Shown here piece by piece: positions 5,505-21,425 of a stretch of 32,564 bases of DNA. The DNA lies in NCBI GenBank assembly GCA_944325165.1, contig CALUZF010000007.1:1-32564 (forward strand), read 5' to 3'. The translations under genes were made by a program, and so were the position numbers. This stretch comes from Candidatus Gastranaerophilales bacterium. Its GTDB lineage: Bacteria; Cyanobacteriota; Vampirovibrionia; Gastranaerophilales; Gastranaerophilaceae. Positions within the stretch are counted from its first letter, which is position 1, and the number at the start of each line of letters is the position of its first letter. Under the pieces are notes generated by a model that worked only from the letters and a program-made list of their open reading frames with translations, had not been told where the DNA came from and made no database searches.

Positions 5505-6626
5505 TTATTTCATAAAACTGCTGTATAATTTTATTTCTTGAGCTCTTACTTCTCTATCTTTTGAAGGCGTAAAGTTTGTTCCGCGCTTTTCTCCAACAGG
5601 TTTTTCGCTTAAGTATTTTTTCTCAAGTCTTTTTTGGTTTAATGTCGGTAAGCCAAAACCAAGGAAGAATACTTCAATTGCAAGTGCTGCTGTTCTTAAC
5701 CAAGCATTTACTCTTTTAGCGCCAAGAGCTATAGGATTTTTTTTGTCTTTAAAGAATTCTTCTATTGTATGATTTATATCAAAAGCGGGTTCTTTATCTG
5801 TTAATGTTGTTGTATCTAAATTCATAAATTTTTCATAAGTTAGATTTTCAAAATATTCAAGAGCACTTTTGTTTCTTCTTATGTTTTCTTCTACATCATT
5901 AGTGAATTTGTTATTTTTTGGCATATTTTCTGCCTTTAGTTTAGCAATGTTTTCTTTTATTGAAGCAATTATGCCATCTTTCATTTTTTCAAATACTTTT
6001 TTAGAATTTCCGCCGTGATTAGGAATATCTTCTAAAAGTTTTTGTACTTCTTCTGCGCTTTTATAGCCTGTAAACAATTTATCTGTTTGCTCGCCACTTA
6101 AAGATTTGCTTCCTCCGATAGGATTTAGAGCTAAACCGATATTTTCGGCAATAGTTTTAAGTTTTTCAGCGGGATTTTGAGCAAATTCTTTTGCTTTATT
6201 GGCAATGTCTTTTGTTTCTTCGTTGAATAATTTTTTGAATGGAACATTAACCATTGGAATACCTGTAGCTTTTGTTCCTATGTTACTTACAACTGAATTC
6301 ATTGTTTTAAGTGCAAATAACATTGTTATTATGGTTGTTACATCTCTAAATAAGATGCCCGTAATTTCATCTTTTGTTGCTTCTTTATCTTCAGGATTTC
6401 TTCTAAGAGCAGTGATTACCCTTGGAATTAATACTGCAAATACCATTATACTTGCAAGTCCGAAAAATGAGTTATCTCCGCCGTTTGGTTCAAAAACATT
6501 TATCACTTTTTTTGCAGTATTATTGTCGCTAACAAATCCGCCTATTTTGTCAGCAAGTTTATTTACTCCTTTACCTAAGGTATTTTTCATTGGTGCAAAA
6601 GATGAGGTTATTTTTGAGATGTTCAT
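5505..6626 (-). CDS. Unrecognised membrane protein, related to the genes at 6623-7633 and 20133-21425
   Basis: 373 residues, no family recognised. Hydrophobic stretches at about 54-70, 96-112 and 308-328 suggest three membrane segments; the charged middle (about 125-300) is helical and lysine-rich. Residues around 70-105 (VITALR, then KEATKDE, then LFRDV and FALK) align by eye with residues 228-262 of the 20133-21425 protein (VITATR, KEARKEER, AFKEL, GLAK). Its N-terminus MNISKIT resembles MKISALA and MKLTAVS of the other two. ATG overlaps the upstream stop (ATGA), with GGGGG about 8 bases before it, so it is coupled to the preceding gene. A clear terminator follows. No signal peptide is evident. 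Confidence 0.8.
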   Translation of the reverse strand: MNISKITSSFAPMKNTLGKGVNKLADKIGGFVSDNNTAKKVINVFEPNGGDNSFFGLASIMVFAVLIPRVITALRRNPEDKEATKDEITGILFRDVTTIITMLFALKTMNSVVSNIGTKATGIPMVNVPFKKLFNEETKDIANKAKEFAQNPAEKLKTIAENIGLALNPIGGSKSLSGEQTDKLFTGYKSAEEVQKLLEDIPNHGGNSKKVFEKMKDGIIASIKENIAKLKAENMPKNNKFTNDVEENIRRNKSALEYFENLTYEKFMNLDTTTLTDKEPAFDINHTIEEFFKDKKNPIALGAKRVNAWLRTAALAIEVFFLGFGLPTLNQKRLEKKYLSEKPVGEKRGTNFTPSKDREVRAQEIKLYSSFMK

Positions 6627-7633
6627 TGTTTATCCCCCTTTTCTTTTGCTATATCAGTATAAACTTTAGTGTCAGGGTTCTTCTTGCCTGAAGCCAATGT
6701 ATATAATTTAGGAATAAATGACATAATTACACCTGTAAGTGCAATCATAGATATGATAGTTATAACGCGCTTACCAATCCAATTTTTCTTAAATGCTTTA
6801 ATTGTGTTTTCGGCTAAATCCAAAGCACTTCCTTTAGCATTTTCTTTTAGATAGTCATTAGCAAAAGCAGTTGTATATCCGATATAATTTTCAAAGTTTG
6901 CTGAAGCTGTTTTAGCATTATCAAGAGAGAATTTTGCAACTTGAAAATCTGTATCTTTGAAGTTTGCTTTTTTAGATTTAATAATTCTTTCAAAATTATT
7001 TTGCATTGTATTAAGTATTTCTTTTGCTTTAGCTTTAGCTGCTTTCTTTTCTTTTCTTGTTGCTAATTGCTTGATATTTTCAAGTGTTGAATCGTATTCA
7101 TTTATGCCATCAAGAAGTGTTTTTACATCATTATCATCTAATTTATCTGTTTTAAGAGTTTGTTTTAACATATCTTGAATAACATTTTCAAAATATACTC
7201 CCTTAAAGTTGTTTTTATCTACACTATTTGGTAATTTTCCTGCAATATATGATAAGTTTTCAATATTCGTAATATGTGTATTTGCTGATTTACCGCCTAA
7301 AGCAGTTGCAACTCCTAAAATTACATAAGGTGCAATAGACATTATAGGGCCTGTTAAAAATTCTCTTATGCCTTCTTGTAATAATGACGGAAAGTTAATT
7401 TTTTTAGTGTGTTTGTAGCCGGACATAGCACCTTTATATGTTCTTGGGAAATTTGTTCCAAGCATATCTTCAACAGTGAATTGCAGTGCTCTTCCGCCTG
7501 CATCAATAATGTCCCACATAACAACTGCGCTATCGGCAAAACCTCTGAAAGACAATCTTTTTTTAGCATTGTTATTATTGTTATTATTTGTAGTATTTTT
7601 AATAGTGTTGTCGCTAACGGCTGTTAACTTCAT
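6623..7633 (-). CDS. Unrecognised membrane protein with LSFRG motif and Asn tract
   Basis: 336 residues, no known domain recognised. After MKLTAVSDNT comes a run of seven Asn (residues 16-22) and then LSFRG (27-31), comparable to ISFKG at 205-209 of the 20133-21425 protein. Residues 88-104 (GIREFLTGPIMSIAPYV) match that protein's residues 56-72 (AIEEFGTGAIWLFAIPA) in pattern. Membrane stretches lie at about 93-112 and 288-307, the latter followed by IPKLY, compared with IQPKL in the homolog. The middle is lysine-rich and helical. AGGAAAG lies about 9 bases before the ATG. First gene of a two-gene unit with the 5505-6626 gene. Its upstream region shares a 13-base element with the aspS promoter. 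Confidence 0.8.
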   Translation of the reverse strand: MKLTAVSDNTIKNTTNNNNNNNAKKRLSFRGFADSAVVMWDIIDAGGRALQFTVEDMLGTNFPRTYKGAMSGYKHTKKINFPSLLQEGIREFLTGPIMSIAPYVILGVATALGGKSANTHITNIENLSYIAGKLPNSVDKNNFKGVYFENVIQDMLKQTLKTDKLDDNDVKTLLDGINEYDSTLENIKQLATRKEKKAAKAKAKEILNTMQNNFERIIKSKKANFKDTDFQVAKFSLDNAKTASANFENYIGYTTAFANDYLKENAKGSALDLAENTIKAFKKNWIGKRVITIISMIALTGVIMSFIPKLYTLASGKKNPDTKVYTDIAKEKGDKQ

Positions 7634-15959: not shown

Positions 15960-16622
15960 TTAAAATGTGTATTCTTTTTTACAATTTGTGCCTTTTGAAT
16001 TTGATACATGGTCAATTTTATAGAATTTAGGTTCACCTTTTTCGTAACCTATAAATTCTCTTGTTTTTATATCAAATAAGCCTTCTTTTACGCCTTTTTT
16101 AACTTCTATATAACTTTCATCATAGTTAAAGAAAGTTGTTTGATTGTATCCTTTTTTCTTATGTTTTGAATGAGCGTTAATTTTTTGCTCTGATGTTTTT
16201 ATCTTATATATTTCACCTGTTTCTTCAACAAAAGTTGTTTCTCTTAGAACTTTGCCTTTTTTATCACATTCATACATTATTCCTCTGCCTAAAGGATCTG
16301 ATTCAAAATCAAATGTAATAAAGCCTTCGTGGCTTTCTAGGTCTGTGTAGTTTCTGTTTGCTGCAACTTCGATTATGCTTGAAACTTCATTTCTTTCCAT
16401 AATCGCTTCGCATAGAACATATTTTGCTCTGTCATATTCTTCAGAGTGTTTGCTCATTTTTACGGCTTGAGATGGTTGTAGCGTTTTTACAAATTTATCT
16501 TCAGCATCTAAGTCATAATCAACAAAAGTTGAGCTATCGTATCTTTTTTGTTGTATTCTTTCTGGTTGGGCTGTATCTGTGTTTCCTTGCCAAGAGTTTG
16601 GTTTAAAGTTAATGATTGTCAT
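15960..16622 (-). CDS. Unrecognised soluble protein, partner of the 16634-17737 gene
   Basis: 220 residues, no family recognised, no membrane segment or signal peptide. The C-terminal half alternates short charged strands with turns (YECDKKGKVLRETTFVEETG, TTFFNYDESYIEVKKGV, GLFDIKTREFIGYEKGEPKFY), a pattern like short beta repeats. LRETTFVEET resembles LRETFFSET in the upstream protein, so the two may share a repeat. AAAGGA lies 5 bases before the ATG. It begins 11 bases after the upstream stop, probably one operon; no terminator is seen before the aspS promoter. Confidence 0.75.
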   Translation of the reverse strand: MTIINFKPNSWQGNTDTAQPERIQQKRYDSSTFVDYDLDAEDKFVKTLQPSQAVKMSKHSEEYDRAKYVLCEAIMERNEVSSIIEVAANRNYTDLESHEGFITFDFESDPLGRGIMYECDKKGKVLRETTFVEETGEIYKIKTSEQKINAHSKHKKKGYNQTTFFNYDESYIEVKKGVKEGLFDIKTREFIGYEKGEPKFYKIDHVSNSKGTNCKKEYTF

Positions 16623-16633
16623 ATTTGTCCTTT

Positions 16634-17737
16634 TTATTGTTCTGTTTTAATTTCTACAAATTTATTGTTTATGCGTCCATATCTTTTTTGGCATTTTGTA
16701 GTATTGTTTTGTTTTATTATGTTTTCTATATATTCTTTTATGCTGCCATCATCTTCAAAATTATATATAAATAAACTTTGTCCATTGTAATTTCTTGTAA
16801 TTGTACAGTTTTGAGCACAGCTTTTAAGTTTTTTATCATTAAAAGAGTATAATCTTTCTACAGAATTTGTATTGTTAATTTTATCTTCTTGACTGTTTTT
16901 TGAGAATAGCGATAATTCATTGTTGAAAAATGTGTAAATTTCATCAAAAATCCTATTATTTTGGGTTTCTTTGCCGTTTTTCAAATAACGTAAAATATCT
17001 CCGTTGTAATCAAATTCAAATATATGAGATATAGCGCCTAAACTATCAGCTTCTGCTTCTTTAAACATTGTAAGTATGCCATCTTCAAATGAAAAACTTT
17101 TGATTTTAGGTTTAGCGCTGTTTTCTTGTGTATGTTTTAATATTTTTTCTATGTTAATTGCAAAATCGTTGTTATCTTGATATAAGGTTTCGCTGAAAAA
17201 TGTTTCTCTAAGTATTTGTCTTGCATCATCTAATTCAACCATAACCATTCCATCAGATTTTCTTTGGAAGTATCTGTTTATTTTATTGTCTTTATATACC
17301 ATATTATAATTATTTTTTCTGCCTTGCGTGATGAGTGATAATACTTCATCAAATTCTTTTTTACCTTCTTCAATAATATCGGCACCTTTTCTTTTGATTT
17401 TATCGGTTTCTTCGATTATTTGAGAGCCTTCATTAAATATTTCTTTGCCTTTTTCTAATATTTTGTCAATTTCTTGTGTATTTTTAGAACCTGGTTTTTT
17501 TATTATCAAATATGCAGATACTATAGCTGCTGCTACAATGCCTGCAATAAGCCCCAAAGTTAATTTTTTGTTATTCTTTAATTTATCAAGAAAACCGGAT
17601 TTTTTGGATAGCTCGACTGTATCTTTTGATTGTTCAATCTTTATTGGCGCAACAAAGGTGTTTTGGGCAGAATTTGTATTTTTTGCCTTCGATTTGTTTT
17701 CAATATATTTTTGATTTATAGCGCTAAGTGTAGTCAT
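16634..17737 (-). CDS. Unrecognised single-pass membrane protein with coiled segment
   Basis: 367 residues from ATG 17737. A polar N-terminal tail (about 1-50) is followed by a lysine cluster and one membrane segment (GLIAGIVAAAIVSAYLII, about 61-78), then a heptad-like helical stretch (about 88-140, IDKILEKGKEIFNEGSQIIE and on) and a repeat-like C-terminal region with FEFDYNGDILRYLKNGKE and LRETFFSET elements like those of the downstream protein. The start MTTLSAINQ resembles MKISALATQ and MKLTAVSDN of other unknown proteins here. I drop the longer frame from 17806 because a good promoter (TTGACT-17-TATATA) lies inside it. The likely start of transcription is only about 6 bases before the ATG. 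Function unknown. Confidence 0.78.
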   Translation of the reverse strand: MTTLSAINQKYIENKSKAKNTNSAQNTFVAPIKIEQSKDTVELSKKSGFLDKLKNNKKLTLGLIAGIVAAAIVSAYLIIKKPGSKNTQEIDKILEKGKEIFNEGSQIIEETDKIKRKGADIIEEGKKEFDEVLSLITQGRKNNYNMVYKDNKINRYFQRKSDGMVMVELDDARQILRETFFSETLYQDNNDFAINIEKILKHTQENSAKPKIKSFSFEDGILTMFKEAEADSLGAISHIFEFDYNGDILRYLKNGKETQNNRIFDEIYTFFNNELSLFSKNSQEDKINNTNSVERLYSFNDKKLKSCAQNCTITRNYNGQSLFIYNFEDDGSIKEYIENIIKQNNTTKCQKRYGRINNKFVEIKTEQ

Positions 17738-17749
17738 ATTTTTATCTTC

Positions 17750-17778
17750 TATATAATTAATAAAAACATTAAAGTCAA
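17750..17778 (-). promoter_or_regulatory. Promoter of the 17737 gene
   Basis: On the minus strand TTGACT (17778-17773), 17-base spacer, TATATA (17755-17750). Only 12 bases separate the -10 from ATG 17737, giving a leader of about 6 bases without a clear ribosome site. Confidence 0.65.
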
Positions 17779-17857
17779 AAAATTTGCTAGTAATAAAGTT
17801 AAACATTTTAAGATTTGTAAAAAAGTTTTGTATATAAAAAATAATTTTTATTTGTAA

Positions 17858-20132: not shown

Positions 20133-21425
20133 ATGAAAATTTCAGCATTAGCAACACAAAATTCTATTAAATTGCTATCAGGACTTGCCAATAATGATGA
20201 TTCACTTGCGGCGATGGTCATAAAAGATTGGATTGGTGATGGCGCAACAGTTTATACTTATAAGAAAAACGGCGGAAAAGATGACGCCAGAGAAAAAGCG
20301 ATAGAAGAATTTGGAACAGGTGCTATTTGGCTTTTTGCGATACCTGCAATAAAGAAAATCATTGATTTTGCTATTTACCCGTTATTTAAGTTAAATTCTA
20401 AATTTGATCCAAGATTATTGGATAATAAAGAAAATTTGAAAACAATTTCAAAAATTGCACAAGGCGAAGAAAAGGCTTTGTTTGATAATTTGAATAATTT
20501 TAACCCTGTTTTAAAGAAATTTACAAATGCTCAAATGTATAAAGGTTTTGCAATAGGAAAATTTGCAATAGCAACATCTATTGCAGCATTTGCTTTGGGT
20601 AAAATAATTAAATACAAACAAAAAACAACAACAGATAGAATAAAGAAAGATAATAAAGCTGATAAAATATCATTCAATTCTAAAACAATAGAGAATGCTG
20701 TAAATGAAAATAAAAAATTTGATAAATATATAAATAACAGTCAAATTTCATTTAAAGGCGGATTATCCGAATTTATGTATAATCCAATTAAAAACACTAT
20801 GATATTAGATGGAGTTATTACTGCGACAAGATTAAAAGAAGCAAGAAAAGAAGAAAGACTTGAGGTTGCTTTTAAAGAGCTTTGTCAGATTGTGTTTATA
20901 TATGGACTAGCAAAACCTATTCAATTAGGTTTTGAAAAAATAGGCGAATTAATGAAAACTCCTATAAAATTAGACCCTAAGAATTTATTTACAAATAATC
21001 TTAAAGAATTAATAGAGCAGGCAAAACCATCAATCAATGAATTGAAAAATTCTAAAAATATTGTTGAAACATTATCTAATACCGATGTTAAGAGTCCTAT
21101 TATGACATTGCTTCAAAATGAGGGATTAATTTCTTTAACTAAAGATAAAAAAGCGCTAAGCGTATTAAAACCGATTGATGAGAGTGCTATTAAAAATGCG
21201 CTAAATAATTTTGAAAATATGCAAGATAATATAGGCAATTTAAAGCAATCTAAGATTTTTAAAGCTGTCGCAGTTATTGCAAATATATTAATTGCAGCAG
21301 GTATTATGGGTGTTATTCAACCTAAATTAACTATACTTTTAAGAAAAATTATGTATGGCACAAATGAAAATCCTGCAATTGCTCAAGAAGAAAAAAGATA
21401 TAAAAATGAAATTAAACTTCTATAA
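20133..21425 (+). CDS. Unrecognised membrane protein, third member of the local family
   Basis: 430 residues, no known domain recognised. It appears to contain two related halves: residues 25-80 (MVIKDWIGDGATV, then AIEEFGTGAIWLFAIPAIKK) and 220-270 (MILDGVITATRLKEARKEER, then AFKELCQIVFIYGLAKPI), the second just after ISFKGG (205-210). Hydrophobic stretches at about 62-85, 138-157, 251-267 and 377-395 suggest membrane insertion; the last is followed by IQPKL. These features recur in the proteins at 5505-6626 and 6623-7633. AAAGGAG lies 5 bases before ATG 20133. It ends 14 bases inside the convergent 82-residue gene. Confidence 0.82.
   Translation: MKISALATQNSIKLLSGLANNDDSLAAMVIKDWIGDGATVYTYKKNGGKDDAREKAIEEFGTGAIWLFAIPAIKKIIDFAIYPLFKLNSKFDPRLLDNKENLKTISKIAQGEEKALFDNLNNFNPVLKKFTNAQMYKGFAIGKFAIATSIAAFALGKIIKYKQKTTTDRIKKDNKADKISFNSKTIENAVNENKKFDKYINNSQISFKGGLSEFMYNPIKNTMILDGVITATRLKEARKEERLEVAFKELCQIVFIYGLAKPIQLGFEKIGELMKTPIKLDPKNLFTNNLKELIEQAKPSINELKNSKNIVETLSNTDVKSPIMTLLQNEGLISLTKDKKALSVLKPIDESAIKNALNNFENMQDNIGNLKQSKIFKAVAVIANILIAAGIMGVIQPKLTILLRKIMYGTNENPAIAQEEKRYKNEIKLL

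Follow-up and report, generated by a model that had tools for sequence, protein, structure and literature searches.

An undescribed family of two-module, probably membrane-anchored proteins encoded by one gene or by two overlapping genes in Gastranaerophilales

In a stretch of 32,564 nucleotides from a Gastranaerophilales genome (hereafter the window), two overlapping genes, P0002 and P0001, encode what profile comparison indicates are two halves of one protein, and a third gene, P0003, encodes an unsplit paralogue of the same two-module plan. The family is undescribed and new at the protein-family level, and no known family or fold was matched. The three proteins very probably belong to one lineage-specific superfamily, of which the unit is two tandem three-helix modules, each consisting of H1, H2, an insert, and H3. 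The Gastranaerophilales, non-photosynthetic relatives of cyanobacteria, are gut bacteria that are common and for the most part uncultured.

Results

A split gene pair and an unsplit paralogue

The genes were located as follows.

6623..7633, minus strand: P0002, 336 aa, carrying module 1 of the split protein
5505..6626, minus strand: P0001, 373 aa, carrying module 2 of the split protein
6623..6626, minus strand: ATGA overlap of 4 bases, with the P0001 start inside the P0002 stop
20133..21425, plus strand: P0003, unsplit two-module paralogue, 430 aa, internal duplication by profile comparison

An earlier note on this DNA had reported these three ORFs and a set of shared motifs, and both were found as it described them. 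It had also treated the proteins as three parallel members of a family. Profile comparison with 32 fused homologues corrected this view: the P0002 family matched the N-terminal half of the fused proteins (100%, 1e-74) and the P0001 family matched the C-terminal half (100%, 1.3e-59). In most of the related genera, P0002 and P0001 together match a single ORF of ~640-790 aa. The similarity of the first seven residues, which the earlier note had used as evidence, carried no demonstrable homology signal, and the P0001 start falls at a position that, in fused homologues, belongs to the linker between the modules.

The ORFs overlapped in all 20 of the 20 split pairs examined, by 1 to 74 nt, and translation of P0001 is likely coupled to that of P0002 through the ATGA overlap. 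On a tree of 52 sequences the split and fused states require four changes, at least two of these being forced by well-supported branches; the tree is unrooted and gives no direction of change (fission or fusion). These changes, together with the overlaps in every split pair, show that a single two-part protein has repeatedly been encoded in the alternative, two-gene form and that the one-chain and two-chain forms are interchangeable. Comparison with a sister species gave dN/dS values of ~0.31 for P0002, ~0.21 for P0001, and ~0.11 for P0003, indicating that all three are under purifying selection.

Homology of the modules

Four groups of P0003-like proteins supplied the N-halves and C-halves that were pooled as module profiles. 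The N-half and C-half of the P0003 type matched each other (95.8%, 6.6e-9). P0002 matched the pooled C-modules (95.2%, 2.5e-8), and P0001 matched both the pooled N-modules (95.3%, 2.2e-8) and the pooled C-modules (97.6%, 3e-12), whereas reversed-profile controls for these four comparisons reached a maximum of 0.5%. The internal duplication that the earlier note had suspected in P0003 is therefore real, and each split gene corresponds to one module. The P0001 profile, which stands for the C-terminal half of the fused family, also matched the P0003 family over its C-terminal half (95.7%, 1e-8). Comparisons of P0002 with the pooled N-halves, and of P0002 directly with P0001, were insignificant (4-7%), so that the membership of P0002 rests on the C-halves and the predicted plan.

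Pairwise BLASTP was insignificant for P0001 against P0003 (E 0.065) and for P0002 against P0003 (E 0.48), as would be expected if the three were unrelated membrane proteins with look-alike motifs. However, the profile homology, for which reversed controls stayed at background, the common predicted plan described below, and transitive links that join N-modules and C-modules across several groups of paralogues make that explanation very improbable, and the homology claimed in the earlier note was borne out. The best BLASTP alignment of P0001 and P0003 was exactly the VITALR/VITATR stretch named in the earlier note. Profile matches likewise fell on stretches that the note had quoted, one with VITALR/VITATR and RD/KE, the other with REF/EEF..TG....IP.

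The SF[KR]G motif lies in the linker ahead of a module. As a general N-terminal tag it was rejected: over ~390 kb of the genome plus the window, it occurred in 18 of 338 genes (5.3%), compared with 6.3% of control windows, and was not enriched. An M(K/N)I start with SF(K/S/G/T) within ~60 residues was seen in a few unrelated genes of this genome (L281 14271-15380, L276 9015-9467, L290 6896-7321, and L279 11817-12815).

Predicted structure and membrane association

The features of the split pair were mapped as follows.

7541..7552, minus strand: SFRG linker motif ahead of P0002 module 1 (F29 nearly invariant, alignment A3)
7289..7390, minus strand: P0002 helix H2 (QEGIREFLTGPIMSIAP...), weakly hydrophobic, invariant RE (helix at the equivalent position of the fused-homologue model)
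6680..6784, minus strand: P0002 helix H3 (RVITIISMIALTGVIMSFIPKLY), strongly hydrophobic (estimate -2.4)
6405..6473, minus strand: P0001 helix H1 (FFGLASIMVFAVLIPRVITA), invariant R69 (alignment, fused-homologue model, hydrophobicity)
6270..6371, minus strand: P0001 helix H2 (DEITGILFRDVTTIITMLFALKTM), invariant E87, R94, and D95 (alignment, fused-homologue model, hydrophobicity)
5607..5729, minus strand: P0001 helix H3 (RTAALAIEVFFLGFGLPTLNQ) (alignment, fused-homologue model, hydrophobicity)

Those of P0003 were as follows.

20205..20270, plus strand: module 1 H1, residues 25-46, invariant K31 and D32 (alignment, model)
20283..20384, plus strand: module 1 H2, residues 51-84 (EEFGTGAIWLFAIPAIKK) (alignment, model, hydrophobicity)
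20526..20687, plus strand: module 1 H3, residues 132-185 (model, hydrophobicity)
20748..20759, plus strand: SFKG linker motif between the modules, residues 206-209 (F207 invariant, G209 at least 90%)
20784..20840, plus strand: module 2 H1, residues 218-236, invariant N221, D226, and R233 (alignment, model)
20847..20951, plus strand: module 2 H2, residues 239-273, invariant E249 (alignment, model, hydrophobicity)
21231..21356, plus strand: module 2 H3, residues 367-408, GIMGVIQPKL (alignment, model, hydrophobicity)

AlphaFold2 models were obtained for P0003 (mean pLDDT 82, pTM 0.73; low pLDDT in the linker at residues 182-210) and for a fused homologue (mean pLDDT 72.8, pTM 0.69). Both showed H1, H2, a variable helical insert, and a long H3, twice each, with H2 of 33-36 aa, H3 of 38-54 aa, and inserts of ~45 to 165 aa. 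The earlier note had named differing folds as the outcome that would speak against a common family; the two predicted plans were found to agree helix by helix in secondary-structure order. H1 is an amphipathic helix that conserves D, R, or both, H2 is weakly hydrophobic with conserved acidic and basic residues (R90 and E91 are invariant in P0002), and H3 is long and hydrophobic with a Pro near its end (P308 and Y311 are invariant in P0002). The inserts differ in length and sequence between homologues; the charged residues of H1 and H2 are kept.

Hydrophobicity was estimated on a biological scale. H3 appeared clearly membrane-like and H2 marginally so (+0.7 for P0002 H2), and no value below +2.5 was obtained for three soluble proteins of the window that served as controls. 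The estimate supports no more than two membrane helices in each module. Positive charges were found on both sides of H3; therefore, the topology is ambiguous and H2 may not span the membrane. The family is probably membrane-anchored, in agreement with the earlier note.

The positive flanks of H3, the weak H2, and the long helices could also belong to a membrane-bending or wedge protein, in which H2-H3 hairpins would lie in the cytoplasmic leaflet with all polar parts in the cytoplasm, as in reticulon-like proteins; a translation start in the linker of the split forms would be possible in such a protein. We consider this quite improbable: little weight can be put on the charge rule, the hydrophobicity of H3 is sufficient for a membrane-spanning helix, and no homology to reticulon-like proteins was found.

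Searches for known families and folds

P0001, P0002, and P0003 reached no curated cut-off in Pfam-A or NCBIfam 20.0, and PHROGs 4, PADLOC-DB, and PDB sequences gave no convincing family match. The sub-threshold matches were at chance level (DUF2670, 16.8 bits where the cut-off is 25; AmaP, 17.4 where it is 55; and phrog_3465, over a lysine-rich helical stretch). Foldseek searches against PDB and viral predicted structures, with VIA second looks, gave nothing above background. No description of the two-module family was found in the literature, and the earlier note's view of the family as undescribed was upheld. The lack of a structural match does not by itself establish that the fold is new.

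The main rival explanation is a small pseudo-symmetric transporter or channel, in which the repeated modules would form a charge-lined pathway and the substrate would differ by paralogue. The internal repeat and the conserved D, R, and E in or beside hydrophobic helices are consistent with such a protein. P0003 weakly resembles ABC exporter half-transporters (VIA Z 5.8, rmsd 7.5 over 192 residues), and the fused protein weakly resembles membrane pyrophosphatases (VIA Z 5.2, rmsd 4.5 over 164). However, both Z values are of a size to be expected between unrelated helical proteins, the P0003 and fused models match different folds, and H2 is just marginally hydrophobic. The helix order of the transmembrane domains of type IV ABC exporters (CydDC, MsbA, and McjD) is comparable over part of the P0003 model, with Foldseek E of at least 0.14 and VIA Z of at most 5.8; unlike these exporters, P0003 showed no ATPase domain, and it had no sequence relation to them and a Z within the helical-protein background. 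A Pfam search of the three chains detected no domain of the ABC ATPase type, none was recognised by eye among the neighbouring ORFs, and no partner gene was recognised nearby. We regard a transporter or channel as rather doubtful, if only slightly less probable than the scaffold role discussed below.

Distribution, copies, and gene neighbourhoods

The two-module family was present in about nine tenths of the 191 genomes of the window's bacterial family (P0002 in 173, P0003 in 171, and P0001, with a single-sequence query, in 103). The earlier note had recognised two loci, both in the window. Further P0003-like genes lie on contigs C4, C105, and C166 (the last cut by the contig end), and the genome therefore holds at least five loci. 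At the class level, 66 of 146 sampled genomes matched, of which 14 belonged to three families other than the window's. At the phylum level, the matches listed came from the window's family and one other family of its order, and photosynthetic cyanobacteria were not among them. A scan of one genome per species with the P0003 family confirmed 261 of 273 pattern matches. The 80 of these relatives that were listed carried the labels Gastranaerophilales, Melainabacteria, or uncultured bacteria, apart from Fusobacterium sp. CAG:439 and a Clostridiaceae isolate, both probably misnamed records.

Neither profile matched in 13 genomes, with completeness up to 99%, of the genera g19 (5), g25 (6 of 7), and g30 (2). 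A few other genomes apparently lacked one type only, for example the fused type in G070, G121, and G180, and the P0003 type in G008 and G069. The joint absence, which concerns three genera only and was counted with phylogeny ignored, looks as if both proteins serve one trait. Flagella were considered as the co-lost trait and rejected, since flagellin presence does not track the two-module family. A diverged split P0002/P0001 copy was seen in G109, a genome assigned to g25 (contig C24, 101935-103706), and was the only one among the g25 genomes searched.

Gene neighbourhoods are not conserved, differ between genera, and name no partner. The window genes sit among housekeeping genes. These surroundings and the near-universal presence in the bacterial family argue against a phage- or mobile-element-borne family, as do the lack of a P0003 match in 50,697 phage records and of a convincing PHROG; vertical inheritance and absence from phages were largely seen. 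Nothing direct favours a mobile origin, which we find barely credible, the nearest observation being one other paralogue of this genome near phage-like ORFs (L152).

A family starting MGM(S/A)ASQARFLGLTARK recurs near the P0003 orthologue in several genera (L161-L165). The window also contains two more genes without a Pfam match on the minus strand, at 15963-16622 (220 aa) and at 16637-17806 (~366-390 aa, one apparent membrane helix).

Another overlapping pair of three-helix proteins

Many genomes of the window's bacterial family carry a further undescribed overlapping-gene pair, c13/c12, encoding three-helix proteins of ~165-260 aa. Loci were found in the window's own genome (L337 on contig C82, 1100-1597 and 1584-2360) and at L155 9400-10655, L346 5493-6697, and L347 5243-6501. 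c13 and c12 are homologous to each other by profile comparison (97.3%, 2e-11). Their module plan resembles that of the two-module family (LG.NN, RP..T..D, RE, and a long hydrophobic helix); like split P0002/P0001, they are two overlapping genes, and they had no match in g19 and g30. Profile comparison with the two-module family was not significant (best 11%, P 3e-3). Judged by eye and from N-termini, the pair often adjoins genes for ECF-sigma-like, small cysteine-containing anti-sigma-like, and small exported proteins (L346, L347, L348, L350, and L155-L157).

Discussion

Membrane proteins arising by duplication, repeat membrane proteins, and gene fission are already familiar. The explanation that we prefer overall joins the two-module anatomy to a scaffold mechanism, and as a whole we hold it at somewhat less than an even chance. 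Since the ORFs of every split pair overlap and the fused counterpart is a single chain, we infer that P0002 and P0001 would be co-produced and would associate as a heterodimer. The hydrophobic helices of both modules would pack into one pseudo-twofold membrane-embedded bundle, the conserved H1-H2 charges would hold this bundle together, and the variable Lys-rich inserts may bind different partners in different paralogues. Tentatively, the two-module protein might thus act as a membrane scaffold or assembly factor. A further reading, that duplicated three-helix modules form a new fold and that the paralogues, some of them encoded by overlapping split genes, make up a lineage-specific membrane machine lost as a set in some genera, appears unlikely.

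The two-module family is conserved and lineage-wide and has a clean anatomy, and its function is putative. As an undescribed, multi-copy family conserved in nearly all Gastranaerophilales, it is a candidate lineage-specific trait. The switching between one gene and two overlapping genes would offer a natural example, open to testing, of a protein whose two modules work equally as one chain or as two.
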